DNA of 64,000 nt, from positions 248,001 to 312,000 of the forward strand of contig NZ_CP166840.1 of NCBI RefSeq assembly GCF_041346925.1, read 5' to 3'. This stretch comes from Agaribacterium sp. ZY112 (lineage in GTDB: Bacteria; Pseudomonadota; Gammaproteobacteria; Pseudomonadales; Cellvibrionaceae). How positions within the stretch are numbered: position 1 is the first letter of the stretch; the number at the start of each line of letters is the position of its first letter. The position numbers and the translations under genes are program-made. Shown one piece after another: positions 4,247-25,200 of this stretch. Under the pieces are notes generated by a model. That model ran no database searches and was not told the DNA's origin. It worked only from the letters and a program-made list of their open reading frames with translations.

Positions 4247-4288
4247 TTGACTCCTTAGACTCACAAAAGCATAATGCGAATCATTATT
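4247..4288 (+). promoter_or_regulatory. Sigma70 promoter with overlapping Fur box
   Basis: A -35 TTGACT (4247-4252) and a -10 CATAAT (4270-4275) are separated by exactly 17 bases. The segment 4270-4288 matches the 19-bp Fur consensus at 15 positions and covers the -10 element, so Fe(II)-Fur would block RNA polymerase. The promoter points toward the small membrane ORF and the flavodoxin operon. Fur control is inferred from the match. Confidence 0.75.
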
Positions 4289-4312
4289 GTTTGCATGTAT
4301 TATTCACGCCCT

Positions 4313-4498: not shown

Positions 4499-4555
4499 TT
4501 CGTCTATTTAGTCACAGAGAAACAGCTTCACCCAGTAAACAACAAAGGAATACCC

Positions 4556-5092: not shown

Positions 5093-5093
5093 T

Positions 5094-7565: not shown

Positions 7566-7638
7566 TTCACACATAAGACTTATTACCCACATCAGTATAA
7601 ATATCGAAAAATTTTCTGCGCCCTGAATTTAAGCCGTA

Positions 7639-7677
7639 ACAGCACTGTTGCATATGTAACAAATGCAACAGTGCTGT
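7639..7677. promoter_or_regulatory. Palindrome with 15-bp arms upstream of the TonB-dependent receptor
   Basis: The arms 7639-7653 and 7663-7677 are perfect inverted complements (ACAGCACTGTTGCAT and its complement) with a nine-base spacer. Each arm also contains a smaller ACAG-N2-CTGT dyad. No T-run follows, so an operator for the adjacent response regulator is more likely than a terminator, although a stem at the end of the kinase mRNA cannot be excluded. Confidence 0.55.
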
Positions 7678-7746
7678 ACCAACAAAGCCTTAATGGGAAT
7701 AATTCGCAATTAGATTTATAGCTAACTTCACACTGAAGGAACATTC

Positions 7747-9774
7747 ATGTCTTACCTTTTACATAAAAAGGCAGCGGTTTCATTAAGCGCCGCTATTACT
7801 GCAATTATTTGGGGTAATTCGGCCCTAGCGCAAACCCAAACTACAAATGACAAAGAAATCACTGAGCAAGTCATTGTCGTAGGCCGTATGACCAACACCG
7901 AAGTCACTCCCGAAGAGCTTGAAAAGCAACAAGCTATCGACCTTAGTGACATCTTTCGCTACATTCCATCGGTATCGGTAGGCGGCTCTTTAGGTGTTGC
8001 ACAAAAAGTCTATGTGCGCGGTATGGAAGACACCTACCTAAACGTAACAGTTGATGGCGCACCTCAAACGAGCACGATGTTCCACCACATAGGCAGGGTA
8101 AACATTGAACCTGAGTTGTTACAGCAGGTGGAAGTACAAGCCGGTGCCGGTGAAGCAACCAGTGGTGCAGGTGCTATTGGTGGTGCCATTCGCTTTAAAA
8201 CTAAAAGCGCTTCCGACCTACTTTCTGAGGACAGCACCTTCGGTGGCACAGCCAAAGCCACTTACGCCTCCAACAGTAATTCCAGAAAAGGCGTAGCCTC
8301 ACTTTATGGCCGTTTAGGTGATAGCTGGGGCATACTCGGCTCTTATGTAGCAGTAAATAGCGACGACATGGTCGATGGCAATGGCGATGACATTAAAGCA
8401 ACTGGTGCCGAACAGCGCTTAGGTTTTATTAAAGCCGATGGTGGTATTGGTGATCACCAACACCTGAGTTTAAGCTACGAAAACAGAGATGAAAGTGGCG
8501 ACTACGCTCAGCGCCCTAATTGGGACCCAAGCCAACAAACCAATTTCTTCCCGATGGACGTTCAACGCGAAACCAGTGTTGTTAATTACAGCTTGAGCCC
8601 CAACCAAGCCCTTAATTTAGAAACGACCGTTTATTACACCGAGCAGACTTTAGCTCAAGATACGGGCCCAGAAAACTGGGGTACCTACAGTGCTAAAGTT
8701 GAATCCATCGGTACGGATATTCGCAATACCTCACGCTTTGGCAGCAACAGCCTGACCTACGGGGTGGACTACCGCCAAGATAAAGTCACAGGCACTGGCG
8801 ACGGCAAAGGTCTATACCCAGCAAGTAAAGACTCCGAAGAAGGCACCGTAATGGGCGCCTACATTCAGGATCACTGGAGCATCACCGATGCACTATTACT
8901 TAGTGCCGGTGTGCGCTACGACAACTACGACCTAGACCAGAAAAAAGCTGCTTTGGAACCCGGGACCGATACCAAAGTTTCGAGTGATGGCTTTAGCCCC
9001 AATATTGGTTTGAATTTTAAAGCAAACGAATATGTGACTATGAATATCGGTTACGCCGAAGCTATGCGCGGTAAAGAAGTCGGTGATGGTTTCACCCTAG
9101 AGGGCAGTATTATCGCCCCTAACCTTGAGCCAGAAAAAGTTAACAATACCGAACTTGGTATTGAGTACGCCGACGAAAACCTTTTCTTAAGTGCGGCGGT
9201 TTACCAAAGTGAAATCACCGATGTGATTATGGATCAAATTGGCCGTGGTACTTATTATGAAAACGCTGGTAAATTCGAAACCCAAGGTTTAGAACTTGCA
9301 GCAGCATACCAATGGGATTCACTGCGTGTAACAGCTAACTACAGTAAAGAAGACCCACAATTTAACGGCCACGATGTTGAAGGCTACGAAGAGATTGGCC
9401 TGGCAAACAGCCGAGGGGACACTTGGAACTTAGGTGCAAGCTACATTCTTTCTGAAGCATGGGAATTTGAATACCAATTCACTTACACCCAAGACATCAC
9501 CGTCAATACACTTTATCGAGCCAAAGAAATAGGTTGGATAGACGATATTCAGCAAGTTGAGAAGCCCGGCTACCAAGTGCACGACATATTTGTACGCTGG
9601 AAACCTCTTGGCGACAGCCTCAACGTAGACTTAGCGGTACTGAATTTATTTGACGAACACTACCGTGACCAAAGCAGTGTTGCCGACTACGGTAGCGTAC
9701 CTGGCTGGAATATGGTTAAAGGCCTTTATGAGCCCGGCCGCGATGTACGCGCAACCGTAACTTACAACTTCTAA
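7747..9774 (+). CDS. TonB-dependent outer membrane receptor
   Basis: The 675-residue protein begins with a signal peptide ending near ALAQ (about residue 28). A TonB box-like EQVIVVG and a plug domain follow, with DIFRYIPSVSV, KVYVRGMEDTYLNVTVDG and the GAGAIGGAIRFKTK segment. The C-terminus is a 22-strand-type barrel rich in alternating aromatic strands and ends in VTYNF, with the terminal Phe used by the BAM machinery. Plug features are closest in my memory to heme and ferric-siderophore receptors, but the substrate is not proven. A possible but weak Fur-like site lies at 7689-7707 (12 of 19 positions). The flavodoxin/two-component operon upstream and the PepSY-type protein downstream support an iron-acquisition role. 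Confidence 0.92.
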   Translation: MSYLLHKKAAVSLSAAITAIIWGNSALAQTQTTNDKEITEQVIVVGRMTNTEVTPEELEKQQAIDLSDIFRYIPSVSVGGSLGVAQKVYVRGMEDTYLNVTVDGAPQTSTMFHHIGRVNIEPELLQQVEVQAGAGEATSGAGAIGGAIRFKTKSASDLLSEDSTFGGTAKATYASNSNSRKGVASLYGRLGDSWGILGSYVAVNSDDMVDGNGDDIKATGAEQRLGFIKADGGIGDHQHLSLSYENRDESGDYAQRPNWDPSQQTNFFPMDVQRETSVVNYSLSPNQALNLETTVYYTEQTLAQDTGPENWGTYSAKVESIGTDIRNTSRFGSNSLTYGVDYRQDKVTGTGDGKGLYPASKDSEEGTVMGAYIQDHWSITDALLLSAGVRYDNYDLDQKKAALEPGTDTKVSSDGFSPNIGLNFKANEYVTMNIGYAEAMRGKEVGDGFTLEGSIIAPNLEPEKVNNTELGIEYADENLFLSAAVYQSEITDVIMDQIGRGTYYENAGKFETQGLELAAAYQWDSLRVTANYSKEDPQFNGHDVEGYEEIGLANSRGDTWNLGASYILSEAWEFEYQFTYTQDITVNTLYRAKEIGWIDDIQQVEKPGYQVHDIFVRWKPLGDSLNVDLAVLNLFDEHYRDQSSVADYGSVPGWNMVKGLYEPGRDVRATVTYNF

Positions 9775-9803
9775 ACTTCTAAACTTCTTCCTTCAAAGGT
9801 TTA

Positions 9804-9843
9804 AGGAGTGGTGCCGCCCCAAACGGTGCTGCTCCTATTTTTT
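9804..9843 (+). terminator. Rho-independent terminator after the TonB receptor gene
   Basis: The 13-bp stem (9804-9816 with 9824-9836, several G-U pairs, seven-base loop) is followed by A and six T (9838-9843). The T-run touches the ATG of the next gene at 9844, which is an unusual arrangement. Confidence 0.7.
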
Positions 9844-10410
9844 ATGAGATCAAAAACCCGTTTACTGTGGATGCATTTACACAGCTACATCGCCTGTTTT
9901 TTTCTTCCTATTGCTCTACTTTATTTAGCTACCGGGCTTGTTTATATGCTCGGTTATGAGGGAGAAGAAAGTGAATTATTACATCAACCTTTTACACTAG
10001 AGAATAAAACCTGGCCCATCGACGAAGCTAAAGTTAAAGCCGAGCTCGAGCCTTTTATTAAAGAAAATAAACTAGGCCCTTTTCCAACCGACTTTTATAA
10101 CGAAGAGGGAAAATGGTTAAGCTGGTATAGCTACAAAGGCGCCATCACTCTCTTCCCTACTGAAGATCCTGGTGAATACACACTGGAAGTAATTGAACAT
10201 GATTTTTGGAAAAGTTTACTGCTTATCCACAAAAGCTATGCTGGGCCTTTTTTTTGGTACCTAAGCTTTGCCTTTGGTTTAAGCCTCTTATTTAGCCTAA
10301 CAAGCGGTTTGATCATTGCTATAGCAAGCAAAAAATTTAGATCAAACTCTCTAATTAGCTTAGTTATTGGTTGCGCTACTTTATTACTAGCGTATTTACT
10401 AGGAAATTAA
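9844..10410 (+). CDS. PepSY-type inner membrane protein
   Basis: The protein has about 188 residues from the ATG at 9844. An upstream GTG at 9808 lies inside the terminator stem and is less likely. It has an N-terminal membrane helix (LHSYIACFFLPIALLYLATGLVYML), a soluble middle of about 100 residues (EESELLHQPF ... EVIEHDFW) and two C-terminal helices (FWYLSFAFGLSLLFSLTSGLIIA and ISLVIGCATLLLAYLLG). The helix-periplasmic domain-helix plan with HLHSYIA and LLIHKSYAGPFFW resembles PepSY-associated membrane proteins, often beside iron-siderophore receptors and sometimes acting as periplasmic ferric reductase components. The family call is moderate. No good ribosome binding site is visible, so expression may depend on the receptor gene. 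Confidence 0.6.
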   Translation: MRSKTRLLWMHLHSYIACFFLPIALLYLATGLVYMLGYEGEESELLHQPFTLENKTWPIDEAKVKAELEPFIKENKLGPFPTDFYNEEGKWLSWYSYKGAITLFPTEDPGEYTLEVIEHDFWKSLLLIHKSYAGPFFWYLSFAFGLSLLFSLTSGLIIAIASKKFRSNSLISLVIGCATLLLAYLLGN

Positions 10411-10461
10411 CAAGTAAGGCCAGAAAATCTTCGTTCTCTGGCCTTACTAAATCGTTAAAGA

Positions 10462-12087
10462 TTAGTCACAGCCACTATTAAAACGCTGCCCACCTTCTTC
10501 CCAAGTACACTGACCATCAATGCACTGGTATAAGTTATTATCAAATTGATTCGTTGCGTGATCAAAAATCTTAAACCAACCACCATCATCCCAAACGGCC
10601 GTAGCCTGATTTTTTTCAGAGGCAAATTCCGCATCAAACTTTTGATACCAGTAGCGAATATTATTACAGTTCATCGCTTGATAACGCGAGCCCCAGCCGC
10701 TGCCCCACTCACCAATATAAATCGGCATATTATTGCCCACACTAGTCGACCACTGGATCATAAGATCCATGGGCTCATAAATATGGCTATCAGTCCAGTT
10801 ATCGTTGTAATCACCTTGATGATTACCGTGGAAAGACCAGGGGTTGTAGTGATGGAAGGTAGCCATCAGATAAGGATCTTCACCTCTACCCACGTCATCA
10901 AGATGAGGCCAAGTCTCAGCCATCTCGTGAGCACCAAACCAGCGGTTACCGCCGATTAAAATAATACGCTTAGGATCAAGTTCACGAATTTTACGATAGG
11001 CCTTACCCGTCATATCACGTAAAGCGGCAGGGTCCATACCTTCATTACTACCGGTAGATTTATGCGGCTCATTTAAAATTTCATAAGTCAGACGGTAATC
11101 TCTATCAATATATAAATCGGCAATATCACTCCAGAGTCGCTCTAGCATAACCGCATTTTCTTGATCCTTAAGCCCCTTTTCATGGTGCGCATTAATAACA
11201 ACATGCATACCCGATAGTGACAGGGCGTAATCAATGGTTGCTGTAATTTCCGCTAAACGAGGGTGTTGACGATTAATTTGACCATTATTAGCACTTGTTA
11301 ATAGATTCGAGCCATCAATACTTTCCGTCCACGTGATGGGGATACGTACATTTCGATGCCCTAAAGCATAATAGGCATCTATTTTTGCTTTAGCTGCCGT
11401 AAACGTACGTGGATGCTGATCACTTTCAAACATTTGACCTAAATTAAAACCTTTGCCCATTGCTTCTATCGCAACATGCGCTGTAATGCCTGCAGGCTCT
11501 GGCGAGTTTGAAGGGATAGGACTTGGTGAAGATTCAGGTGAGGGGCTAATGACAGGCGAAGGACTTACACTTGACACAGGGCTTGGGCTTAGTGAAGGAC
11601 TAGGAGTCGGAGTAAGGCTAGGTATAACACTTGGTTCAGGACTTGGCATGACAGAAGAGCCACACAACTCGCCATTTAAACGAAACTCATTTACCTGCAC
11701 CGCTTTTGATGAACTTTTATTTATTAGAAAACCAAAGTTTGAACTGCCATTAACAGCAATTCGCCCATTCCATGAATTTGATTTATTAGCAGCTTCTATA
11801 TTTTTACCACTATTACTAAAGTTTGCATTCCAACCGTTAGCAAACGTTTCACCTTCACCGAGTTGCCACTGCAATTCGTAGCCATTAATACTTTCAATAC
11901 CTGTATTGTTAATGCTAATGTTAATTTGCGCGCCACTATTCCACTCATTAGTAATTGTGTAATCAACATCACATGATAATGCACTGCTTACGCCACTAAA
12001 CAACAGAGTACTTAGGCCTACAAGCGCCGTGATAGGTTTAAGCCGTCTACGATGACAAATATCCGATATAACAAGCTTCTTTTCCAT
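10462..12087 (-). CDS. Secreted endoglucanase: CBM2, Ser-Pro linker, GH5 catalytic domain
   Basis: Translation most likely starts at 12087 (MEKKLVISD), behind AAGGAT about eight bases upstream. The longer frame to 12222 adds an unlikely hydrophobic leader. Residues 1-37 form a signal peptide. Residues about 39-142 are a CBM2 cellulose-binding module (terminal Cys pair, conserved Trp and WNGRI). Residues 147-198 are a Pro/Ser linker. The rest is a GH5 (clan GH-A) domain with the RIPITW strand, acid/base Glu340 in YEILNEP and nucleophile Glu460 in YIGEWG. GH5 enzymes hydrolyse beta-1,4-glucans or mannans by a retaining mechanism. The CBM2 favours cellulose, but substrate within GH5 is inferred only. 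The gene is monocistronic. Confidence 0.93.
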   Translation of the reverse strand: MEKKLVISDICHRRRLKPITALVGLSTLLFSGVSSALSCDVDYTITNEWNSGAQINISINNTGIESINGYELQWQLGEGETFANGWNANFSNSGKNIEAANKSNSWNGRIAVNGSSNFGFLINKSSSKAVQVNEFRLNGELCGSSVMPSPEPSVIPSLTPTPSPSLSPSPVSSVSPSPVISPSPESSPSPIPSNSPEPAGITAHVAIEAMGKGFNLGQMFESDQHPRTFTAAKAKIDAYYALGHRNVRIPITWTESIDGSNLLTSANNGQINRQHPRLAEITATIDYALSLSGMHVVINAHHEKGLKDQENAVMLERLWSDIADLYIDRDYRLTYEILNEPHKSTGSNEGMDPAALRDMTGKAYRKIRELDPKRIILIGGNRWFGAHEMAETWPHLDDVGRGEDPYLMATFHHYNPWSFHGNHQGDYNDNWTDSHIYEPMDLMIQWSTSVGNNMPIYIGEWGSGWGSRYQAMNCNNIRYWYQKFDAEFASEKNQATAVWDDGGWFKIFDHATNQFDNNLYQCIDGQCTWEEGGQRFNSGCD

Positions 12088-13398: not shown

Positions 13399-13722
13399 CT
13401 AACGTTTTAACGTTATCGACTTCACCCCTTCAGCTTTCCAAAACACAGCGCAGGTGTTTAAGCTTTCAGCCTCGACTCTAAGTCCATTTAAATAAGCATG
13501 ACGAACCAGATCAAACAAAGCCATACCGCCTGGCGCACTTAAATCTATAGCGTAAGCCTTATGCTCATTACAACGCGCAGGCTCTTTTAACTCACTAGAA
13601 AGCTGAAAAAGAACAGCTTCAGAGGGCGTCATAGCTTTAATCATTACAACCTCGCCAGACCAAGAAGCAGCCAGTACCGATGATGTTCCAAATAAAAAAA
13701 CTAATGCCAACAATAGTTTCAC
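13399..13722 (-). CDS. Small secreted protein, array member 1
   Basis: A GGAGG lies directly against an ATG at 13728, but a GTG two codons later (13722) has the correct six-base spacing. The GTG start gives MKLLLALVFLFGTSSVLA, a clean signal peptide. The mature part of about 88 residues has one Cys before the middle (EPARCNEH), a helix-like stretch (MALFDLVRHAYLNGLRV) and a second Cys near the end. The same plan (signal peptide, beta-rich start, Cys, a helix with small residues and 'A..G', a closing Cys and beta strand) recurs in ten other genes up to 20541. The function is unknown; export to the periplasm or beyond is likely. Confidence 0.75.
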   Translation of the reverse strand: MKLLLALVFLFGTSSVLAASWSGEVVMIKAMTPSEAVLFQLSSELKEPARCNEHKAYAIDLSAPGGMALFDLVRHAYLNGLRVEAESLNTCAVFWKAEGVKSITLKR

Positions 13723-13830
13723 CGCCATCCTCCGAAAGTTAAAAACGCTATAAACCTACAGGCCATACTTAACACATAACTACCACACCAACTCATAGCA
13801 ATGAGACAAGAAGCCGAAAAGTCACTATGA

Positions 13831-14175
13831 TTACTTCAAACCAATACTTATAACACTGCACGGTGTAAATACAACACCAGGGCAGTGATTAGTATCACCA
13901 CTATTATCACTGTAATAAAACCAAACATTCTTTCCTGTAGCTTTAGCATGAAGAGCTGCTGAAAGTAAGGCGCTATTATTATTTCTTATAGCAACATAGC
14001 CACCTGAACACTCAGCAGATAATTCACTACTCACTTTTAAACATGTCACTCCAGAGTTAGGTGAATCTTGACCACCATTAACCAATATACGAGTAATATT
14101 TGTATCACCAATCACGATAGATTCAGCCCAAGAAAAGCTGCTAAGCACCAGAGCCAAGAAAATAGAATACTTCAT
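13831..14175 (-). CDS. Small secreted protein, array member 2
   Basis: The 114-residue protein has a signal peptide (MKYSIFLALVLSSFSWA). Its mature chain carries four Cys and the array's central helix (ALLSAALHAKATGKNVWFYY), followed by CPGVVFTPC and a final strand ISIGL. The helix with the 'A..A..GK' ending and a following beta strand align by eye with the neighbouring family members. No catalytic motif is apparent. It lies about 100 bases from its neighbours with an AT-rich leader, so it could have its own promoter. The function is not recognised. Confidence 0.72.
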   Translation of the reverse strand: MKYSIFLALVLSSFSWAESIVIGDTNITRILVNGGQDSPNSGVTCLKVSSELSAECSGGYVAIRNNNSALLSAALHAKATGKNVWFYYSDNSGDTNHCPGVVFTPCSVISIGLK

Positions 14176-14263
14176 AAAACACCAACAAACTTAAACACTA
14201 TAAAAAAATAAACAGTACAGCAAGCTAACGAGCAACACTCAAAAACAGCATAATAAGTATTTA

Positions 14264-14830
14264 CTAGCAACGCCCAGACGCTTGATCAACTTTAACTAAT
14301 AATGCTTGTAACTCCAACTTTAAGGCCTGCTTTACTTCATCAGCTTCCGCCTTAGATTTATCTAGAGAAATAGTGGAAGCCGCTCTATCACTGAGCCACT
14401 CACACGAACGCCCCCCATCATCAAAGTTAGTTTCTAAGCTCCAGTAAGCATACATCTGATCATCACTACCAGGCTCTAAAGTAAACCCATATTTTTTTAC
14501 TATCAGACTAAACCCGCTTACATAGCCGATACTGGTTTGACTGAGCGCCGACAAAACTTCGTCTTTAGCACTAAAACCCGCTTTAACAGCGCTAGCATCA
14601 ATCTCTTTAGCGATGCCTTCATCTATCGCAACACCAATGGCGATACCCATGGCGCCCATAGATGAACTGAGCATTAAGCCCGCCCCAGCACCTTTACCAG
14701 AAAACCTAATGCGATCCGGCTCTGCTATAGAGACATCAGCTTTAATCGATTTTTCACCGGGAAAGCCAGAGCAAGCACTTAAAAAAACGCTTAAAATAGT
14801 CGAGAGAAAAAAGAATCGAGACAACCCCAT
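14264..14830 (-). CDS. Lipoprotein within the small-secreted-protein array
   Basis: Translation from 14830 (MGLSRFFFLS), preceded by GAGG seven bases upstream, is preferred over an upstream ATG at 14908. The lipobox LSAC at about residues 17-20 predicts lipidation. The mature protein (about 170 residues) has a Gly-rich hydrophobic stretch (GKGAGAGLMLSSSMGAMGIAIGVAIDEG) that could insert in or cross a membrane, followed by a mixed alpha/beta domain with a Cys pair. It differs from the surrounding small proteins in length and pattern. I know no named family for it; its place inside the array suggests a shared process. Confidence 0.75.
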   Translation of the reverse strand: MGLSRFFFLSTILSVFLSACSGFPGEKSIKADVSIAEPDRIRFSGKGAGAGLMLSSSMGAMGIAIGVAIDEGIAKEIDASAVKAGFSAKDEVLSALSQTSIGYVSGFSLIVKKYGFTLEPGSDDQMYAYWSLETNFDDGGRSCEWLSDRAASTISLDKSKAEADEVKQALKLELQALLVKVDQASGRC

Positions 14831-14922
14831 AACAACCTCAATTAAAAACCTATTAAACACAAACACGCGCCTAAGAAAAGCATTCAAAGGCGCGCTCACC
14901 GCTTTCATAGAAACTACGTCAA

Positions 14923-15240
14923 CTAGGGGTTGTAAACGTAATTAATCCTACAACGACTACCATTCATGGAGCTCGTTACCGCCTGAATACATACCCTATT
15001 ATTTTGAGCTTTTTCTGCAAGAAGAAAACTCATCACATAATCTTTATTATTTGAGTCATGCTTTAAATAAAATCCACCTGGGCACAAAGAAGGATTCTCC
15101 TCATACTCAACCCAAATACCATAGGTATCATTACCATTAGCCCATATTCTAAATGTATCGATAGGACCACAAAACTTTTGCGTGTCAGCTACAGATTGAA
15201 ATGACAAAAAAAGAAATAAGAACGCAGAAATAAACTTCAT
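14923..15240 (-). CDS. Small secreted protein, array member 3
   Basis: The 105-residue protein has a signal peptide (MKFISAFLFLFLSFQSVA). The mature part has four Cys: one just after cleavage, one in SLCPGGFYL, one after the central helix (VMSFLLAEKAQNNRVC) and one near the end (RCRINYVY). The overall plan matches the array family, ending in a short beta strand INYVY. The gene lies between the lipoprotein and the hydrolase on the same strand. The function is unknown. Confidence 0.72.
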   Translation of the reverse strand: MKFISAFLFLFLSFQSVADTQKFCGPIDTFRIWANGNDTYGIWVEYEENPSLCPGGFYLKHDSNNKDYVMSFLLAEKAQNNRVCIQAVTSSMNGSRCRINYVYNP

Positions 15241-15318
15241 AAAACACCTAAGTCAGTAAAAAACATACAAGCATGCGAGGAGTCATTACCATCAAAAAGA
15301 CCTTACATAGCCAAAACT

Positions 15319-16860
15319 CTAATTAAGAATTAAAGAAATAACAGGAACAAGCCATGGATAGTTATAAGTATCACTAATAGCCATATCATATAAATCACTA
15401 ATATTGCTGGACATTGCCCCACCCACACCATACTCGGACATGTGAAAATCATTTACACCGTTAGCAACAACCACGTCAAAGGGGCTTTGAGATAAGTCAA
15501 CAGGGGAAACAGTGTCAACTGGAACCGTATTAATAGCCAAAGCACTTAATGTTGGTATAAAGCACGAGCTTTCTCGATGCACTTCAATTCCATCACTGTA
15601 TGGATTTGGCCATGTTTCACTAAGCACATCACCTAATCGCTCACCAAGCTGTTTAGGTACATCTACAGTCGAACAAGGGATGTCATCTAAATGAGGCGCC
15701 CACTCCCAATAGATAGTTTTTTCGTACTTGTCCGTTCCGTCACCAAACGACAATTCTTCGCTTGCATCTTGGTAATCCATCCTCCCCCAAAACATAACAG
15801 GACCTGAGTTCGGACGCGCTTGGTGTACATTCAGCCAAAGCTTGTTATAGCTATTAACACTATCTGAGTGAGACTTATAATATAAGTACTTATCACCGGT
15901 TACCCCGGCTTGATACCCTCCACTTATTGAACCATTCGCGATGGCGGAATTAGTTTTTGTGTTTTTAGGAAAGCCCAAAGCAGCCAGCTCAGCCTGAAGC
16001 GCAAGCCCTAGAGAATGCATTTCATTACCATATAGTTTGTTTTGTATAAGTAACTGCTTGCCTGCATTCGAATCAATACTCTCAGTAATCAAAAGCTGCG
16101 CTGTGGTAATAGTCGACTTAGCTTTTCTCAACTCTTCATGAGCCGTTTCACTCAAGAGTAAATCATGGTTAAAAGCGAAATCATCAACAAGCCACTCACC
16201 TATATCCATCAATTTGTCTGATAACCAACCTGTATTATCAGCCTTGGCTCTCTCCGTAGCATCTCTTAGGAAGATTGGAACATACTGAAGAGAAAGAGGA
16301 ACATGCGCACCTAAATGAGGAGAATCATATGAAATATAATGGCTTACATTATGAACCACCCCCTGCTGCTCCATAGTAGTCAGCGCATACCTAGCGACAA
16401 CGCCGCCCAAACTCAAACCAACCAACACCACTTCCTGATTAGAAGTACGAAGCGATTCAATTTTCTTTATTGCTTGAACTAAGGCCAAACCTTTATTTTG
16501 AAGATAATCTTCATTGTTATTAGAAAAATCAAAATACACAACATCGACATTTGAAGCCTTGGCCTTATCTAGCAAATCCCGAGGGATATTACCTAGCCCC
16601 AGCGGTTCTAATCCCTCGGAAAAATCTAAATCGTAGGGCCCCACCACATAGAGAATTCTATTCAGATTAGCCCCGTTATCAGCAGGCACTATCTTTACAT
16701 CTAAAGAACCAAAATCAACATAGGACTCTTTTGCATCAACTGAACACCCAGACGGATCGTAAAAATCCGCTACATTTTCACAGGTACCAGAGTGAGCCTT
16801 TAAAGCCACCAAAAACAAGCAAAGCCCAACAAAGCTAAAAACCTTTAATAAAAACCTCAT
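15319..16860 (-). CDS. Secreted alpha/beta-hydrolase (lipase/esterase-like)
   Basis: The 513-residue protein starts at 16860 behind a GGGGGA ribosome binding site and has a signal peptide (MRFLLKVFSFVGLCLFLVALKAHS). The nucleophile elbow GLSLGGVVARYAL places the catalytic Ser at residue 150. An oxyanion-type strand (ILYVVGPYDLDF) and a following strand with SYDSPHLGAH are consistent with a lipase or PGAP1/DUF676-like fold. The catalytic Asp and His are not assigned with certainty; YDSPHLGAH and NDFHMSEYGVGG are candidates. Cys near both ends suggest disulfides. It sits in the middle of the small-protein array on the same strand as most members, so a joint function (enzyme plus binding proteins) is possible but unproven. 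Confidence 0.8.
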   Translation of the reverse strand: MRFLLKVFSFVGLCLFLVALKAHSGTCENVADFYDPSGCSVDAKESYVDFGSLDVKIVPADNGANLNRILYVVGPYDLDFSEGLEPLGLGNIPRDLLDKAKASNVDVVYFDFSNNNEDYLQNKGLALVQAIKKIESLRTSNQEVVLVGLSLGGVVARYALTTMEQQGVVHNVSHYISYDSPHLGAHVPLSLQYVPIFLRDATERAKADNTGWLSDKLMDIGEWLVDDFAFNHDLLLSETAHEELRKAKSTITTAQLLITESIDSNAGKQLLIQNKLYGNEMHSLGLALQAELAALGFPKNTKTNSAIANGSISGGYQAGVTGDKYLYYKSHSDSVNSYNKLWLNVHQARPNSGPVMFWGRMDYQDASEELSFGDGTDKYEKTIYWEWAPHLDDIPCSTVDVPKQLGERLGDVLSETWPNPYSDGIEVHRESSCFIPTLSALAINTVPVDTVSPVDLSQSPFDVVVANGVNDFHMSEYGVGGAMSSNISDLYDMAISDTYNYPWLVPVISLILN

Positions 16861-16944
16861 ACATCCCCCTAAATGAAACCATTAATCCGAAACAACAAGA
16901 CCACCTAACTATAACACCCGGCCCAACAAACAAAGATCTATTAC

Positions 16945-17334
16945 GTGCCAAACACCTATACAATAAAAAATTTAATTCATTACAAATTAAATGACCATAT
17001 CCTTTCCCAACCATTCCTTAATGAGAAAAAATATGTACAAAAAATAGCAACCATGCTACTTCTAGCATCATCATTAAACACTCATGCTGCCTGGCACAAC
17101 TTGACTGGCGAAATAACCCACATAAATTTTTATGCTACGACAGACACCGTGCTAGTAAAGCTTGAAGGCCCAGGAATCCCTGTGGATGCATGTTCAAGCA
17201 AAGATTACTTCGCTATTGATGGAACCACGCCTGAAGCAAGAAGAAGTCAAATGATTGCAGCATTACTTTCTGAAAAAACAGCAGGAACAAAGGACACTAT
17301 TGCATACGACTTCACCAGCTTCTGCGTACCTTAG
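16945..17334 (+). pseudogene. Small secreted protein, array member 4, probably with a disrupted start
   Basis: This is the only array member on the plus strand. The mature part (AAWHNLTGEITHIN ... YFAID ... MIAALLSEKTAG ... FCVP) clearly resembles its convergent neighbour at 17464, but ends about 12 residues early after the last Cys. The expected signal peptide start (MRKNMYKK, from the ATG at about 17021) is in another frame and stops at a TAG after a run of six A at about 17039-17044. One extra A would restore MRKNMYKKIATMLLLASSLNTHA. As written, only an unusual GTG at 16945 gives a long start. It may be a pseudogene, phase-variable, or a sequencing slip. Confidence 0.6.
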
Positions 17335-17392
17335 TAACAACCCGAGCGCATACAGAAGCATATTAAGAGTAGTTAGATAATAACCGACAACC

Positions 17393-17427
17393 GTACAACA
17401 ACGAAAAACCGGCACACGCTGTTGTAC
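17393..17427. terminator. Inverted repeat between convergent array members
   Basis: Arms of 11 bases (17393-17403 and 17417-17427, one mismatch) flank a 13-base loop. The repeat lies between the 3' ends of two convergent genes, as expected of a bidirectional terminator, but has no clear T-run next to it. Confidence 0.4.
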
Positions 17428-17463
17428 TGAACGCATCACACTTAAGCTTTTTTAGATTCCCCA

Positions 17464-17790
17464 TCAACCTACCCGGTACACCTTCATACGACCATGGGAA
17501 CAACCACCTTCTGCATCATAACCAATATTAATTGGCTCACCACTTGCGTAGGCTAAAAGTAAACGGGAAAGGACCTGCTGCCTAGTTGCATCAGGTGTTG
17601 ATGCATCGATAGAAAAATAGTCCGTCTGGCAAGCTGGGTGAGAGGACGGCTGATTTTCTAGCCTTATCAGTATATGATTGGTATAGGTATAAGTAAGCAC
17701 ATGGGTTACCTTGCCAACTATATTAGCGTTGTAACCAGCATAAGATTTAAAGCTAAAAAACAGCAAAAACAACACACAACAAAATTTCAT
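17464..17790 (-). CDS. Small secreted protein, array member 5
   Basis: This 108-residue protein starts behind AAAAGGAG and has a signal peptide (MKFCCVLFLLFFSFKSYA). The mature protein shows the family plan in its clearest form. It begins with a beta-rich start (GKVTHVLTYTYTNHILIRLE), then C-x3-YFSIDASTPDA, a helix (QQVLSRLLLAYASGEPINIGYD) and CSHGRMKVYRV. Two Cys in the mature part could form the conserved disulfide. Small proteins of this size and pattern can adopt OB-like folds such as AB5 toxin B subunits; this is only an idea, based on size, disulfide and strand-helix-strand order. It is most like array member 4, its convergent neighbour. Confidence 0.78.
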   Translation of the reverse strand: MKFCCVLFLLFFSFKSYAGYNANIVGKVTHVLTYTYTNHILIRLENQPSSHPACQTDYFSIDASTPDATRQQVLSRLLLAYASGEPINIGYDAEGGCSHGRMKVYRVG

Positions 17791-17933
17791 AAAAACTCCT
17801 TTTAAATAAATTTATTGCAGTCAATGGCACCAAGGCATATCACAAACATACAAAAGCCAATGCAAAGCACATCTAATATAAAACAAAGCAATACTTACTA
17901 TAGAAAAATAACAAAGTCATAAAACACGAAAGG

Positions 17934-18275
17934 TTAATAAGCGGCAATGCGTGAAGCGACCACTTTACCGGATAAAAATGCCACACCACCAGTACCACAT
18001 TGACTCGAGCTTTCCGCAACCTTTATCAATGAACCACTTTTCTGCGCAGCTAATAGCACTGAAAGAACTCGATTAATTTCGCCTTCACTACCTTCATAAG
18101 CATATTTAGTAGCATCTGGGCAAGAAGCTGGATTGATAATTGCACCTGTTGTTTCAAACAGAATAAAGCCACTATAACCGGCATAAATAACTGTTACCTT
18201 TTCTTTACCCGTCCAAGAATCAGCATAAACAAAACAAGGAAGCAAACAAAAAAGTAAAAAAATACGTTTTAACAT
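17934..18275 (-). CDS. Small secreted protein, array member 6
   Basis: The ATG at 18275 (MLKRIFLLFCLL) is preferred to a TTG at 18293, giving about 113 residues with a signal peptide ending VYA. The mature part has CPDATKYAYEG, a helix (INRVLSVLLAAQKSGSLIKVA) and QCGTGGVAFLSG, with two Cys placed as in other members. The gene ends close to its neighbours and shares strand and spacing with members 7 and 8, so the three may be co-transcribed. Function unknown. Confidence 0.75.
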   Translation of the reverse strand: MLKRIFLLFCLLPCFVYADSWTGKEKVTVIYAGYSGFILFETTGAIINPASCPDATKYAYEGSEGEINRVLSVLLAAQKSGSLIKVAESSSQCGTGGVAFLSGKVVASRIAAY

Positions 18276-18299
18276 TTTAATCACCCTGAACAACTTAAC

Positions 18300-18635
18300 C
18301 TATAAATTCCAAAAAACATCAACTTTTGCAGCACCATTGATACATGCGTCTTGCTCATACTGAACACGCATTTTTCGCCCCTCATTCATAGCCGTTAAAG
18401 CCGCAGAGTAAAACAAATACGCTTCCGGCCCCTCTAGCAGCATAGAGTATACCTTCCCATCTTCACAGCTCGTCCCTTCAGCAGTTTGATCGCCTTTTAT
18501 AAATACTCTGTTAGTATTTTTTGACAGACCCACTTCTACAACATCAATCACCATTCTAGATGCTGCACTTGCAACTCCAGAAACTACTAACAGCATCAAT
18601 ATAGAACAACGCACCGCTATGGTTTTAAAAAACAT
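18300..18635 (-). CDS. Small secreted protein, array member 7
   Basis: This 111-residue protein starts behind AAGGAAG and has a signal peptide (SILMLLVVSGVASA). The mature part contains TSCEDGKVYSMLLEGPEA, a helix (YLFYSAALTAMNEGRKMRVQY) and a closing ACINGAAKVDVFW. Two Cys are placed as in the rest of the array. It begins 25 bases before member 6's start region on the same strand. Function unknown. Confidence 0.76.
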   Translation of the reverse strand: MFFKTIAVRCSILMLLVVSGVASAASRMVIDVVEVGLSKNTNRVFIKGDQTAEGTSCEDGKVYSMLLEGPEAYLFYSAALTAMNEGRKMRVQYEQDACINGAAKVDVFWNL

Positions 18636-18655
18636 ACAACTTCCTTATATACATA

Positions 18656-18997
18656 TTACATCTGAATAGAATCAACCAAGCAGTTAGGACTATCGTCATG
18701 GTTGATACGGATAGGTTTATTAAGTGAATATGCAAGCATAACCACACTCAACATGCTCTTTACACCTTCAGAACCTAAATCATCTTTTGCATAAACCTTA
18801 AACAAAGTTTCATTTTCAAAACACCCAGACCCGATCATTGAGGTTTTAGAAGTGATACGAAAATCACCATTAGAAAGCACTTCTACACCTTTAACTTCAA
18901 CATTAGAGGTTTTCTTTGGCGATGTGTACTTATCAGCAAAAGCACTAAACGAAAAGAACACCACAAAAAAAACAAAACAACATCTCTTAAAAAACAC
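18656..18997 (-). CDS. Small secreted protein, array member 8
   Basis: A GTG at 18997 with GAGAG about seven bases upstream gives MFFKRCCFVFFVVFFSFSAFA, a good signal peptide. The longer frame from 19027 adds residues that weaken it. The mature part of about 93 residues has a Lys/Thr-rich start, GCFENETLFKVYA, a helix (VKSMLSVVMLAYSLNKPIRIN) and a final Cys in NCLVDSIQM. It is slightly shorter at the C-terminus than its relatives. Function unknown. Confidence 0.7.
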   Translation of the reverse strand: MFFKRCCFVFFVVFFSFSAFADKYTSPKKTSNVEVKGVEVLSNGDFRITSKTSMIGSGCFENETLFKVYAKDDLGSEGVKSMLSVVMLAYSLNKPIRINHDDSPNCLVDSIQM

Positions 18998-19110
18998 GAC
19001 ACACTCTCTATACAAAAAAACCAACAAAGTTAAACAGAGAATAAATATAACTAAGATTAAACCTCAGCAGCACAAACAAATTACGAGAAAAAAACAAACA
19101 TACAGACACA

Positions 19111-19428
19111 TTAATTTTGAACACTTAGAATGGTAATAGGCTTCATATTATTTGACCCACACCACGATATAGGCTCTCCCGGATATACATTTGCAGTTCG
19201 CTTACCCGAAGCCATCATAAACATTGCCATTGACAAGAAATGAGAAAGCTTTTGCTCACCCACTCTAGACTTCTGCACGAGATACCACTCCCCATTACTC
19301 ATCTTAAGAGCAAAATCACTACTACAGTAATATATTTGCTCAATTTTTAACCCCGCCCCACTGGCATGCACTCCCATTGAAGCGATAGAAACCGAACAAG
19401 CTAAGAAAAAAACCAACAGATTCTTCAC
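19111..19428 (-). CDS. Small secreted protein, array member 9
   Basis: As in member 1, AAGGAG abuts an ATG (19434) while a GTG two codons later (19428) has ideal spacing, giving MKNLLVFFLACSVSIASMGVHA. The mature part has YYCSSDFALKM, a central helix (LSHFLSMAMFMMASGKRTANVY) and SWCGSNNMKPITILSV. The helix is unusually rich in Met. The Cys positions and terminal beta strand agree with the array family. Function unknown. Confidence 0.73.
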   Translation of the reverse strand: MKNLLVFFLACSVSIASMGVHASGAGLKIEQIYYCSSDFALKMSNGEWYLVQKSRVGEQKLSHFLSMAMFMMASGKRTANVYPGEPISWCGSNNMKPITILSVQN

Positions 19429-19679
19429 AAACATCTCCTTAATATTTTAATCACACAAAACACAATCAAAAAAACCTACCAATCGAAAATATCGACCAAT
19501 AAGTAATTCAGCCAAACAAACAAGGAGGGAGAGAAGCGAAAAAACATACGATAAAATTTAATAACAAAGCACTCCTTGCTTACTCGAAAATAAAGCATAC
19601 CCATAAAAAGATATTAACTATTTCGCACTTACAACATTCCTTATATCTCGCTATATTTGGCTTAACGTATTAGAAAGCT

Positions 19680-19721
19680 AGTAGCGATAGCACGCATGGA
19701 TAAATGCGTGCTATCGCTACT
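19680..19721. repeat. Long perfect hairpin overlapping the stop codon of array member 10
   Basis: Arms of 18 bases (19680-19697 and 19704-19721) are perfect complements with a six-base loop. The TAG of the gene at 19717 lies within the right arm. There is no T-run beyond it on either strand, so this is not a classical terminator. A palindromic element or an mRNA 3' protective stem is plausible. Confidence 0.6.
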
Positions 19722-20061
19722 CTATGTACATACCATCGGGAAAGACTGTTGAATTAGACGAAGCCACATCACAGCTCTTTGCTCCATCCGAGCTATAATA
19801 CTGAAGAACAACTTGCTTATTGGCCATTTGTGCGGCAAGAGCCATAGAGTGCCGAACTCTAACCAGCTCATTATCAAAAGTTCCGATATAGTACGATACA
19901 CCATTACCACACTCTATTTTTGATTTAGAGCTATTCCCTGTACCACCAATAAATCCAGCATGCAATTGATTAACTGTGCACTTACATGTATGAGTTACCG
20001 CATAACTATTAGATACATTCAAAACACAAGACAAAACAACTAGAAATATCAATTTTCTCAT
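19717..20061 (-). CDS. Small secreted protein, array member 10
   Basis: Start at 20061 (MRKLIFLVV), with GGGAG five bases upstream, is preferred over 20088. The signal peptide ends near SYAVT. The mature part is Cys-rich (CKC near the start, KIECGNGVSYYIG, and KSCDVAS) and carries the family helix (RHSMALAAQMANKQVVLQYY). The stop codon is embedded in an 18-bp hairpin. A 280-base gap without genes separates it from member 9. Function unknown. Confidence 0.74.
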   Translation of the reverse strand: MRKLIFLVVLSCVLNVSNSYAVTHTCKCTVNQLHAGFIGGTGNSSKSKIECGNGVSYYIGTFDNELVRVRHSMALAAQMANKQVVLQYYSSDGAKSCDVASSNSTVFPDGMYIE

Positions 20062-20187
20062 AACACTCCCTATAAGACCAAAGTACAATTATTCAAAACA
20101 CTGGTCACAAAACACTGCATAAAAACCCACCTTAGATCTTTACTCTACCAATTCAGTAATAAACGGCTTAAGCAAGACACAACGAGA

Positions 20188-20541
20188 TTAAAGAACAGGC
20201 GAGCCCACGGTTATATATGTTGCTTTGCAGTAATGTGAAGCTGCTGCTCTTTTTGAATCATCATAATGCACACCAATTTCTTTACCTGCCATATGCGCAG
20301 ATAAAGCCATCGAATATGCTTCACTACTATCCATAGCAAAAAGGGCTCGCCCCTTCCATGTACCGCACTCCCCTACTTCGGCAACCCCTTTTAAAGTAAA
20401 CCAAAATACTGGGGGCGACCAACTTGGGTGCACTTCTCCATCATGAATACGAACGTATTCAACAACACCTTTCACTTCTCCTGTTTCTGCTATAGCCGAA
20501 ATACCAAAAAATAATAAAGTAACAACAAGTAACCTAGCCAT
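20188..20541 (-). CDS. Small secreted protein, array member 11
   Basis: The 117-residue protein has a signal peptide (MARLLVVTLLFFGISAIAE). The mature part shows GVVEYVRIHDGEV, a strand (FWFTLKGVA), GECGTWKGRALFAMDSSEA, a helix (YSMALSAHMAGKEIGVHYDD) and SHYCKATYITVG. It is one of the better matches to the array consensus, with helix, 'AGKEI' turn and closing Cys strand. It is the most upstream of the minus-strand members and lies next to the transposase unit. Function unknown. Confidence 0.76.
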   Translation of the reverse strand: MARLLVVTLLFFGISAIAETGEVKGVVEYVRIHDGEVHPSWSPPVFWFTLKGVAEVGECGTWKGRALFAMDSSEAYSMALSAHMAGKEIGVHYDDSKRAAASHYCKATYITVGSPVL

Positions 20542-20650: not shown

Positions 20651-21887
20651 CACCCACTTTGTTATTACTTAAAAAATATGACGCAAGCCGTAATAATAGC
20701 GTATAAGAGTTAACCAGATCTATAAGATTACCAAAGAATAGACATGAGAAATTAGCCTTCCATTTCAGGCAAGAGAAAAACTAAAAGTGAGGATAGGCTA
20801 AACCAAGTAAACACTAAGAACCGAATAAGGCCTTGCAACTACGTACACCAGAAGCTTGTTTAAGGCCAAACTGCTCTGCACATATTCTAACTACATGACC
20901 TCGACCAACAAGCCCTTTAAATCTTACTTCAAAATCCGTAGTTACACTTAACCATCTGTTTTGATCAATATGGAGACGTTCTAATATATTAGGCAAATCA
21001 TCATAAATACGCCCACGCTTATTCACACGAACCTGCCTACCCGTCCAATCAACTAACTCTATATAATCTTGCAGTCGAAACGGCAAGCCTTTAGGCATTG
21101 TTTTGCGCGGATTGCCAACAAAGGCAAGTAAATCGGCTGGTTGTTGTCGGGCTTGGTTCGGAGAGTTGGACGATTTAGCTTTTTTTATTCGGCGTTTAAT
21201 ACTTGTATTATCTGAGCTTTCTGGAGTTTTAGCCATCTTTGCACGGATAGGATTTAAATCAACATACGCCATACAAGCAGCCAATGCGGCTTCATCTAAT
21301 AAGGCCTGGCTTTTATAACGACCTTCCCAGAAACGCCCAGTGCATTGATCTTCGGAATTAGCTTCGCGAGCGACACCTTCATTAATCAATTGCATAAACT
21401 GGCTTATGCTAAATAAGCGTTCACGCCAATTTTCGATAATCCCTTTTAAAACACTCATTTCAGCGTTATCGAGCGATTCATCTCGAATAAAGCGCTGGCT
21501 AAGCAAATTACCTTTAAAAATACAGTGCCAACGCTCAACAACCTCTTTATTTGACCAACTAAGCGCCTGCGCCTTATCAACCCGTAGCACCACATGGTAG
21601 TGATTTGACATCACCGCATAGGCGCAAACATCAATGGCAAAGGTCTTGGCAAGCATAAGGATACGCTCTTCTACCCACAAACGTCGATGCTCATAATCAC
21701 AGCCTGTTAGTTGATCTTTACCACACAAAAACGCCCTACGTACACAGCGGCTAACGCAGTGATAGTAAGGCGTGGCATCTAAACATATCTGTTGTTCGCG
21801 CGCTTTGGTCATACGATCTAGTCATCAGCTAGTTGAGAATAACTGAAGACTAGACCAAATTATAAAATACAGACAACTTAGTGGGTG
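20651..21887. mobile_element. Candidate REP-associated transposase unit bounded by inverted repeats
   Basis: CACCCACTTTGTTAT at 20651-20665 and the complement of 21873-21887 (CACCCACTAAGTTGT) agree at 12 of 15 positions and enclose one Y1 transposase gene. HUH/Y1 elements of the RAYT group do not usually have classical terminal repeats, so these may instead be REP-like recognition sequences. No target duplication is evident. Confidence 0.45.
20814..21812 (-). CDS. REP-associated tyrosine transposase (Y1, HUH family)
   Basis: The 332-residue protein carries the IS200/RAYT-type Y1 domain. The N-terminus YYHCVSRCVRRAFLCG is followed at about residue 70 by the HUH metal site in MSNHYHVVLRVD, and MAYVDLNPIRAKMA is typical of TnpA-REP proteins. 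The nucleophilic Tyr is probably within the IDVCAYAVMSNH or later YVDLNP segment; I do not fix it. These enzymes cut and join single-stranded DNA at REP palindromes and are mostly single-copy, domesticated housekeeping-like genes. The C-terminal 100 residues include a helix-turn-helix-like region. No ordinary IS partner gene is present. Confidence 0.88.
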   Translation of the reverse strand: MTKAREQQICLDATPYYHCVSRCVRRAFLCGKDQLTGCDYEHRRLWVEERILMLAKTFAIDVCAYAVMSNHYHVVLRVDKAQALSWSNKEVVERWHCIFKGNLLSQRFIRDESLDNAEMSVLKGIIENWRERLFSISQFMQLINEGVAREANSEDQCTGRFWEGRYKSQALLDEAALAACMAYVDLNPIRAKMAKTPESSDNTSIKRRIKKAKSSNSPNQARQQPADLLAFVGNPRKTMPKGLPFRLQDYIELVDWTGRQVRVNKRGRIYDDLPNILERLHIDQNRWLSVTTDFEVRFKGLVGRGHVVRICAEQFGLKQASGVRSCKALFGS

Positions 21888-21928: not shown

Positions 21929-22240
21929 TTAGTTATTACCTCTTAATTCAATCAACTTTTTTTGTACAGACCTCATCTCTTCTTTACTAAGCCCTATAAC
22001 ATTTGGGAAGTCATGCTCATTCAGTTGAACACCATGAATTAATGCGTTTATCGTACTTAATACCGCATAAAACTCATCATCTCCGAGCAAAGACAAGGCA
22101 TCACCACCAATAGAAGAAAGCAACTTGTCTACCACTAAATTTGGTAACGCCGTCGTTATAACTATGTCCCCAGAAGACTCCAGGTCTTGTAAAACAAGCG
22201 CAATCTTACTTCGAAGATTTGTTGGATTAACATCTATCAT
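21929..22240 (-). CDS. Probable immunity protein for the upstream CDI-like toxin
   Basis: Start at 22240 (MIDVNPTNLRSK) is chosen because GGGAGG lies five bases upstream; an ATG at 22261 would overlap the toxin gene. The 103-residue protein is acidic, helical, without signal peptide or membrane segment, so cytoplasmic. It begins 11 bases after the stop of a large exported protein with a toxin-like C-terminus. That is the invariant position of CdiI immunity genes. I do not recognise its family. The assignment rests on position and size. Confidence 0.65.
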   Translation of the reverse strand: MIDVNPTNLRSKIALVLQDLESSGDIVITTALPNLVVDKLLSSIGGDALSLLGDDEFYAVLSTINALIHGVQLNEHDFPNVIGLSKEEMRSVQKKLIELRGNN

Positions 22241-22250
22241 GAAGCCTCCC

Positions 22251-25200
22251 TTACGGCTCATTAATAAAATAATCTAAAGTCTCTTTAAATACTGAACCGC
22301 CATCAGGATCCCTAGGGTTTAAAACAACAAATGTTTCAGTAGGAAGATCATAAAAATATTCTCGCCCTCCATTAGCAAGCCGTTGATGAGTAGGATATGT
22401 CATAACTTTCTCGATATGCTTTGCAAACTCCTCCCTTGTCTCAACAAACGGAAAGTATCCATCGTCAGTCACATGCTTAAACGCATGACCATTTGCAAGC
22501 CTTACAGACTCTTCCTGGGCTTTTAACTGACGCTTCAATAACGCCTTACTTTCATTAGTCACCCCATAATGATTAACGGGGCTATTAAGATCTGTAACTT
22601 GGTTACTACTCTTTAGAAAAAACTTACCCGCAAACTTGCCAACAATCGGAATTGCAAGCAACACAGTCTCGTAACTTACTGCCCCTCCCCCAGATATGCG
22701 CTTAATTTCAACTACAGTTGAGCACCCAGTCATATCACAAGCAAACGCCCCAAGACTCTCTACAGCCTCCCCTAAATCTTCCAGAAAATTTAGTGCTCCC
22801 AACATTCCCTGCTGCCCTGGAGTTCCTTCTGAAAAAACTATTGGCGTATCCAAATCAAACCCTACCGGCTCAGTCCAGGCACAAGGCTGACCATTAAACT
22901 GCCCACTCATAGCACATGCCGTTTCCTTATCTAAGTGGCGAGCTCTTGATTCCGACTTTACAGCTGCAGCGGCCTCCAGTTTAGCCACCAGATCGGGATC
23001 TTCTTTTACATCGTAGCCATTAGGGTAAGTACTCCCAAAATGCCATTTACCCTCTTCATCTTGCCATCTATACCCACTGGAAACCTTCTCAGCCAGAAGA
23101 GTTTCCCTGTCATCAAGAGCATTAAAACGTGCTGCAGTGTATCCAGCAGTTGCAGCAATATTCACATCCATACCAGCAACAAATGCTGAAACAGCAGCCG
23201 ACAGCTTAGCCATATCTGCACCACGAGCAACGAGTAAATCCGCCTGATACATAACCTCGTCAAGAGGAAGGGCTCCATCGGGCCCTATAGCCTCGTTAGC
23301 CCACTCCAACATATCCTCATCTAAGCCCTCACTGTAATATTGCCCCACTAACTCGCCCACCACAGCGCCACCTGCTCCACTTTGACAAGCCATATTGGAA
23401 TCTATTTCACCCTCAGAAATAGAAGCACTAGCAACACCCGATATACAGCCTGCACCTGCATGCGCAACATATTGAATCGCGGTATTAATATGCCCATTCT
23501 CTGCGGCATCACCAATAGCCGTAGCCATTTTCTGACCTATCGTATTGACAGCAGTCATTGCAATGCTTTGACCTAGAGCATCGCCAAAATCAGAGAAATC
23601 ACCTTCATTAATAGCCGTTTGCACACCCGCCGACACCACAGAATTAGCAAATGCTTGAGTTGCCTGGCCAGTAAGCGATAACTCTCTTGGCGCTGAAAAC
23701 AGCCATGAATCATCTACTTTATTTACATCAACTTCAGTGAAGAATTCGGCGCTAACTTGGTTCATAGCCCAAGCAGTTACCATGGAGGTGGCTATCGTTC
23801 TTGCACCTTGCTCACTAAGAATGGACTCATACGCGGCCTCAAACACTTCCAATGGATTCTCTCCATTTACCGCCGCATTGGCGGAAGCTTGAGCAGCCAA
23901 GGTCGCCATAGAAGCTACCGCCGCCTGCGTAACAGCTACTGTTGTTGCATGCGCGGTTGCAGCCGCTGCGGCTGTCATACCATGTGCTGCTCCTACCAAA
24001 GCCGCACCAGCCCCCATCGTCGCTACTGCAGCCACGATGGCAATAACTGCCATAGCTGCCGCATTCAGTGAGGTATCGTGCTTATCCCAACTCTTATAAA
24101 CAACATCTACTTCTTCCCAATCAATACCCGTTGTCTCGTCATAATAGAGATCAGCAACCCATTCCATGCCCTCAATTTCTTGAAATGCATCGACCTGATC
24201 TTTAAGGCTTAAGCCTTCTTTACCTCCATATTGAATATGGATTGATTGTGCTGCCTCAACCGAGAAGCCTCCAACAATACTGTTATAAACTGCTGTTTCG
24301 CGTGTATGACCACGATTTATTGTTGAGGTGGTAAACAAGTTTTCTTTTACATTGCTGTAACTATAATGATCATTTTCTTTAGCCAACAATAACTTCAGCG
24401 CACCGCCTGCAGCAGATACGCTGGTACCATCCACCGAAGTAATATCAGCAGCCCTTAAAGTAATATCACCAAACTCACTGCGAATAGTGATGCCTTTACC
24501 CGCATCTAAGAAAGATCGAATAGCAACCGATTTGTAGGCCTCTTCAGTCTCACTTCCCCGCTGATAATAACTCTGCGTTGAACTCAACTGATCCTGGACA
24601 GTTATCCCCATCCCGGCCAACAAACTAATATGCCCAGAGTCGGAAATTATTTCAGAAGCATCAATTAATATTTTACCAGCGGCCATTAACTCGATGGTAT
24701 CTTCAGCGGTAATATAAGACTGTAAATATGAGGTAGCAGAGCGGCTCTCTTGCGCCGAACCATAACGAGATGAACTACTACTAAAGATAGGCAAGCCAGC
24801 AACAACAATATCGCCAGCTGAGCTTAAAGTGACACTGCCTTCATTTGCAGAGACCTTTGCTCCAAGGATTTTAATATCTTCAACTGTACTTTCTAAAGTA
24901 ATACTACCATCAGTCGAGTTAATGCTGGCGATCGTGCCGTATGAAGTCCCTTGCTCATAACCCAGATCATAACGGTATACGATAGTATGGTTATGAATAC
25001 TTTTCCCAGAAATATCTAAGTTACCGTTAGCACTTATAATGCTTGATGCGTTATCAAAGGTTCCGCCTGCAACAATTTTTAAGTTGCCTTCACCGGTCAA
25101 TCTGGAGTTCGTAAACTGTATACCTTGAGTAGCATTTATAAATGTATTACGAGCAGTCCTAATATCAACATTAGTTGCATCAAACGCTTCAAAGTTTGCC

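Follow-up and report, generated by a model that had tools for sequence, protein, structure and literature searches.

What does a run of eleven small, divergent and apparently exported proteins do around a secreted hydrolase? The question is raised by positions 13,399 to 20,541 of a 64,000-nucleotide stretch of Agaribacterium sp. ZY112 (Cellvibrionaceae; NCBI RefSeq assembly GCF_041346925.1, contig NZ_CP166840.1, positions 248,001 to 312,000 of the forward strand), referred to here as the window. The eleven genes form one family, the member that was modelled is predicted to have the oligonucleotide/oligosaccharide-binding (OB) fold of AB5-toxin B subunits, and in other genomes a hydrophobic C-terminal tail is statistically linked to neighbouring genes of this family. 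We favor, with moderate confidence, an AB5-like explanation for the array and the tailed hydrolase, in which rings of the small proteins, called B-like proteins below, would dock tail-bearing secreted payloads. Loci and genomes are cited by working numbers (L and G).

All eleven small open reading frames (ORFs), the hydrolase and a lipoprotein gene were open where the sequence-only reading of this DNA had placed them. The small ORFs encode 105–129 residues; ten are encoded on the minus strand, the remaining one on the plus strand.

13399..13728, minus strand: B-like protein 1, 109 aa, predicted OB-fold exported protein, 65% identical to its relative P0029
13831..14175, minus strand: B-like protein 2, 114 aa, four Cys, relatives at 56–63%
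14264..14830, minus strand: lipoprotein, no function assigned; in three other genomes its relatives lie close to family genes
14923..15240, minus strand: B-like protein 3, 105 aa, four Cys, relatives at 60–68%
15319..16860, minus strand: exported alpha/beta hydrolase of 513 aa with the nucleophile motif GLSLGG, a putative payload or A-like subunit
15319..15363, minus strand: hydrophobic tail, NYPWLVPVISLILN, at the C-terminus of the hydrolase, a putative docking peptide
16945..17334, plus strand: B-like protein 4, the sole plus-strand member, true start uncertain, best relative elsewhere 43%
17464..17790, minus strand: B-like protein 5, 108 aa, the one with a structure model (predicted local distance difference test, pLDDT, 95.5)
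17934..18293, minus strand: B-like protein 6, best relative elsewhere 36%
18300..18635, minus strand: B-like protein 7, weakly similar to DUF5992 (15.1 bits against a cut-off of 23.8)
18656..19027, minus strand: B-like protein 8, best relative elsewhere 31%
19111..19434, minus strand: B-like protein 9, the most divergent member, missing the first of the two usual Cys residues; identity to its relatives 61% and 54%
19717..20088, minus strand: B-like protein 10, four Cys, relatives at 57–73%
20188..20541, minus strand: B-like protein 11, relative at 47%

The lipoprotein ORF opens at 14908, and by eye the start at 14830 fits the lipobox LSAC better. The N-termini of all eleven small proteins appeared export-like on inspection of the translations alone, and the array products look Sec-exported. 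The shared features described in the sequence-only reading, a Cys, a helix ending in a turn and a Cys in the end strand, held in an alignment of 149 family sequences. Two Cys columns of this alignment were 97% Cys among rows with a residue there, the helix Ser column was 90% Ser, and the turn after the helix was G (59%) followed by K (44%); the helix positions were hydrophobic in seven of ten. The low pairwise identity judged by eye was borne out as well, since the mature parts are 15–37% identical, with a median of 24%. Leave-one-out profiles, a form of the check proposed with that reading, retrieved ten of the eleven mature members above all 1100 shuffles, and two of the 1100 shuffles reached the score of 19111-19434. 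When full-length sequences were used, every member outscored the best non-array ORF of the window, narrowly in the case of 13399-13728 and 19111-19434. In an iterated profile from 40 related loci and the window, from which 19111-19434 and its two close relatives were kept out, the E value of this member, once the first round was past, lay between 2.9e-6 and 8e-6. An E value of 3e-10 from an earlier profile was set aside as not independent because the member had been inside that profile. The eleven genes are confirmed as real and as one family. Pfam and NCBIfam models name none of the eleven, and PADLOC returned nothing for the seven proteins scanned. The statement that no known named system has this make-up agrees with the literature searched, in whose listed results no description of such arrays or of the tail appeared, most subscription papers and all bioRxiv preprints lying outside that search.

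A structural comparison, likewise proposed earlier, placed the family closest to AB5 B subunits by predicted fold and profile ranking. The AlphaFold model of B-like protein 5 (17464..17790; pLDDT 95.5) is an OB fold of five strands and one helix in the order strand-strand-strand-helix-strand-strand, and AB5-toxin B subunits accounted for most of its PDB fold matches among the 50 listed. In sequence-profile searches against the PDB, ArtB was matched at E 3.7e-5 with signal peptides kept; without signal peptides the best E value was 0.052, and 13 of the 14 matches listed were B subunits. Like the B subunits of the ArtB, PltB, SubB, Shiga-B and cholera/LT-B types, the family members are small, exported proteins with a helix predicted between strands 3 and 4. 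They differ from these in occurring as arrays of up to 14 divergent paralogues (L057), in having hydrolase, RHS, TED/cyclase-like or subtilase proteins as neighbours, and in a sequence similarity that is marginal once signal peptides are removed. DUF5992 (PF19454) proteins are of similar length, and a protein of the ZY112 genome above the DUF5992 cut-off also matches the array profile (E 0.0012); however, no array member reaches the 23.8-bit cut-off (best 15.1), and 2 of the 149 family members match at E 0.01.

The hydrolase is PGAP1-like (PF07819, 35.6 bits; cut-off 24.3). Its AlphaFold model (mean pLDDT 76.8; predicted template modelling score, pTM, 0.79) matched esterases in Foldseek, and a search against PDB sequences gave no match of note. 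Residues 475-513 have a pLDDT below 50 and form an extension with a short helix at 504-512. The known catalytic domains of AB5 A subunits are ADP-ribosyltransferases, N-glycosidases, subtilases or DNases; no known A-subunit catalytic domain was found in the hydrolase, which has the PGAP1-like alpha/beta hydrolase domain instead. Among six aligned hydrolase relatives, an aromatic-hydrophobic tail is present in those of the window and Agaribacterium haliotis and in P0037 and P0039, and absent from P0036 and P0038. A scan of the genome collection for the hydrolase gave 36 loci, among them one close full-length relative, that of A. haliotis, which is 46% identical and lies in the same order of B-like protein 5, hydrolase, B-like protein 3 and lipoprotein. 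In G118, from a different family of the order, a homologue (E 1.1e-10; PGAP1 match under the Pfam cut-off) likewise ends in the tail, with B-like genes on its flanks. Of 42 hydrolase-homologue ORFs, one per locus in 42 loci among L091-L135 with flanks of up to 1.5 or 8 kb, some stopped by contig ends, three have the tail (window, A. haliotis and G118), and these are the three beside B-like genes; a 214-residue ORF at L127 (E 0.012) was not taken as B-like. Three partial hydrolase matches were obtained in a plasmid search, and a viral-contig scan with P0037 as query gave no match. The hydrolase now looks like a partner of the array and not a bystander.

The link between tail and array was examined on further proteins. 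Five TSP3-plus-tail ends gave a profile with which 293 genomes were searched, and listed matches outside the training set were called tail-bearing when they reached at least position 56 of 61 of the profile at a true C-terminus. Ten listed matches reached this position, and L246 (another type of C-terminus) and L247 (no reading frame identified) were dropped. Among the matches listed, all eight remaining tail bearers had a B-like gene within 1.5 kb, at distances of 0, 35, 36, 36, 174, 969, 1028 and 1494 bp; L239 counted as positive only once the rest of its contig had been added. A tail profile was also run on 58 relatives and gave five matches below E 0.001. Those of the window, A. haliotis and G025 were themselves part of this profile; a new match came from G030, and the fifth from G047. 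A ninth tail bearer (L272/L295), obtained with this tail profile, had no B-like gene in 14 kb on a contig that ends 405 bp downstream.

Overall, eight of nine tail-bearing proteins had a B-like neighbour, compared with none of 21 tail-less TSP3 proteins in the stretch available (Fisher p 1.5e-6). The p value was 1.9e-5 when three near-identical copies were counted once (6/7) and 7.4e-5 when the orthologue of a training protein was also dropped (5/6). The controls were the author's choice from the matches listed, all from genomes carrying the family; one or both flanks were short for L248, L252, L253 and L254 (very long protein or contig end), and L260 and L262 sit on contigs of less than 4.4 kb. 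Because the control genomes G052, G093, G103 and G239 carry only one to four family matches each, the eight controls from family-rich genomes (G304, G069, G105, G185, G047 and G133) were also tested alone, giving p values of 3.7e-4, 0.0014 and 0.003 for the same three comparisons. Other families contributed 20 further stretches at 17 sites. Three tails were called there, and for two of them a B-like gene was only 9 and 27 bp away (p 0.036 at 500 bp and 0.07 at 1000 bp); these two proteins have Ig/TSP3 and cohesin domains. Tail and B-like neighbours are thus statistically linked.

A survey by hydrophobicity covered 83 loci with 332 family genes, family members of more than 190 residues not being counted. 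A strongly hydrophobic end was found in 7 of 39 exported-looking proteins adjoining a family gene and in 5 of 168 not adjoining one; a single protein present in two genomes accounts for two of the seven, and among the five are the two tail proteins of L177, 1.3 and 4.2 kb from a family gene. The aligned tail ends read roughly [VW]L[IV][PV][IV][LI]..[LI]L, and the tail bearers are unrelated to one another.

L067 and L205: 891-residue protein, sub-threshold zinc phospholipase C match
L174: RHS protein with TSP3
L172, L177 and L183: proteins matching cyclase or TED domains, partly sub-threshold
L177: subtilase with TSP3
Further tail bearers: hydrolases

At L067, the 891-residue protein, a small lipoprotein and a second hydrolase-like protein stand in a row beside family genes (2650-7706), possibly as effector and immunity pairs.

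Several tail bearers carry TSP3, Ig, cohesin or TED/cyclase-like domains, which are frequent on surface proteins, and these raise the reading that the array is a surface-anchoring or secretion module, in which B-like proteins bind glycans of the cell's own surface, or act in export, and hold the tail-bearing proteins. One SubB-family protein, from another genus, is described as a lectin associated with the outer membrane (PMC12064104). Antagonism is suggested instead by the payloads, hydrolase and subtilase, and by the toxin neighbours described below, and the tails match no sorting-signal model: among ten tail-bearing or tail-like proteins, no listed match to the CTERM models of NCBIfam covers a tail. 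We consider surface anchoring or export quite unlikely.

Known toxins offer a precedent for tail docking. In typhoid toxin the C-terminal tail of PltA sits in the pore of a PltB or PltC pentamer (PMC8749428), and a related toxin has an amphipathic tail surrounded by a single pentamer in which two B paralogues are mixed (PMC12629460). On the basis of this tail docking and of the hydrophobic helix of the family, we propose rings of B-like proteins with a tail-docked payload. The eleven proteins would be paralogues, most of them old, in a family of exported OB-fold proteins that shares the B-subunit fold. Beyond the cytoplasm they would probably form pentameric rings, of one paralogue or of several, with surface glycans as ligands. 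The hydrophobic tail of the payload, here the hydrolase, would thread into the ring pore in the manner of the typhoid toxin A subunit, and the hydrophobicity of the family helix could suit a helix that lines the pore and also packs on the barrel. A swap of ring paralogues would then give another target and a swap of the tail-bearing protein another payload, and the complexes would act on other cells rather than be anchored at the cell's own surface. The C-terminal tail as docking element would be common to this system and tailed A subunits such as PltA. Unlike PltA and SubA, the payload of the window is a PGAP1-like alpha/beta hydrolase with an uncharged tail, and similar tails end unrelated proteins. 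The subtilase among the tail bearers of L177 belongs to the enzyme class of SubA.

The array profile matched eight further places in the ZY112 genome, at E 0.0012 or better, and was matched in 21 of 58 relatives. With a larger family profile, members were found within the order in 45 of 293 genomes; of genomes drawn more widely, 32 of 369 in the class and 5 of 299 in the phylum had them, the genome of the window being included every time and at most 13–16 candidates being scored per genome. Arrays of at least nine genes occur in several other genera (L057, L058, L064, L171, L188 and L312), and one genome may hold several arrays, as in loci L051-L056 of G010. Eight of the eleven members of the window have relatives of their own elsewhere at 47–73% identity, and the array therefore gathers mostly old sub-types; the suggestion of fast-evolving envelope factors is rejected for the array as a whole. 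The relatives of the remaining three (16945, 17934 and 18656) reach only 31–43%. Two distant family genes of the ZY112 genome (6410-6685 and 565415-565690) have identical scores and are probably a recent duplication. At L055, a protein with an extracellular contractile injection system (eCIS) core domain (90.5 bits; cut-off 22) adjoins three family genes (8989-11802).

Seven 48-base repeats, 63–100% alike, lie among small same-strand ORFs at L070 (5191-9657; near 2.24 Mb of the ZY112 genome), and one of these ORFs is a family member. Most of the repeats end in GTTATG, like attC sites, and because of these attC-like repeats family genes may also be integron cassettes. Such surroundings bear on the reading that this is simply a large family of small exported OB-fold proteins in mobile islands, with tails and toxins there by chance. 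Homologues of a REP-type transposase, eight ORFs at loci of five genomes including the window, would fit it, as would the weakness of tail tests by hydrophobicity alone. It is nevertheless very improbable in view of the eight of nine against none of 21 in the tail test and of the gene order kept in A. haliotis at 46% hydrolase identity.

The genomic context also includes toxin-type genes. The window array lies downstream of two haemagglutinin-type proteins, one of which has a DUF637 domain.

20814-21812: tyrosine transposase of the REP type (PF01797, 26.3 bits; cut-off 23), located between the toxin gene and the array, with homologues at family-gene loci of other genomes
21929-22261: 110-residue gene overlapping the end of the DUF637 protein, candidate immunity gene
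22251-25943: haemagglutinin-type protein carrying DUF637, probably with a toxin domain at its C-terminus
25922-28891: partner haemagglutinin-type protein, ending in DWWG after an amphipathic-looking stretch

The homologue of the partner protein at L059 ends alike, that at L087 in WWEDE, and the TSP3 protein of L257 has a similar end. The DWWG end was considered as a second docking tail and not used because L257 has no B-like neighbour in 12 kb.

Arrays that also follow polymorphic toxins make an exported polyimmunity locus the main rival explanation, in which the array would stock distantly related periplasmic proteins that confer immunity to, or inhibit, polymorphic toxins and secreted hydrolases. 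Polyimmunity loci are described as tandem, distantly related paralogues (PMC3482391), and this arrangement near polymorphic toxins is found here. Some observations weigh against the AB5-like explanation. Arrays adjoin DUF637 haemagglutinin-type proteins in the window, with homologues of the pair at arrays in four other loci (L059, L064, L083 and L087), and SpvB/RHS-type homologues occur in six loci of five genomes; such a toxin-type protein lies within about 2 kb in 4 of 17 fresh sites (L311/L312, L316, L322 and L323), for example in G861, where a 2468-residue SpvB/TcdB-like protein is followed by a 175-residue gene and then ten B-like genes. In the hydrophobicity survey, the link of tails to family genes was weaker without the filter for exported proteins (p 0.052, 0.005 and 0.044 at 500, 1000 and 2000 bp). 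The family members found among small ORFs with attC-like repeats would also suit an immunity store.

Several features speak against an immunity store. Some toxins have their own adjacent candidate immunity gene: Imm49 is over the cut-off beside the L064 toxin and under it beside that of L059, and a 322-residue gene with no family assigned adjoins the YwqJ-deaminase toxin of L087. Unlike known polyimmunity loci, the arrays have products that look Sec-exported and can occur several to a genome, and no Imm model matched the eleven proteins (Pfam and NCBIfam) or the 149 family members (Pfam). A polyimmunity locus also does not predict a common tail on unrelated neighbours, unless the tail itself is the target of inhibition. 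The toxin context keeps this explanation alive, though we judge it unlikely. Of the earlier interpretations, the B-subunit-like OB fold has been strengthened, and inhibitor or immunity proteins are retained as a rival only.

A broader possibility, which we hold tentatively and with rather more doubt than confidence, is that the array belongs to a widespread modular AB5-like platform, in which interchangeable ring arrays dock unrelated payloads (lipase-like, subtilase, TED/cyclase-like, RHS and others) by one tail, and of which the AB5 toxins of pathogens are a specialised offshoot. If true, the AB5 architecture would be a common plug-in design for secretion and targeting in environmental bacteria, and not only one of pathogen toxins. 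It would also provide a readable code, in which the C-terminal tail marks the payload and the neighbouring array supplies the ring, so that payloads could be found by sequence through their tails, and ideas on how AB5 toxins arose and on what their orphan B subunits mean would become testable.

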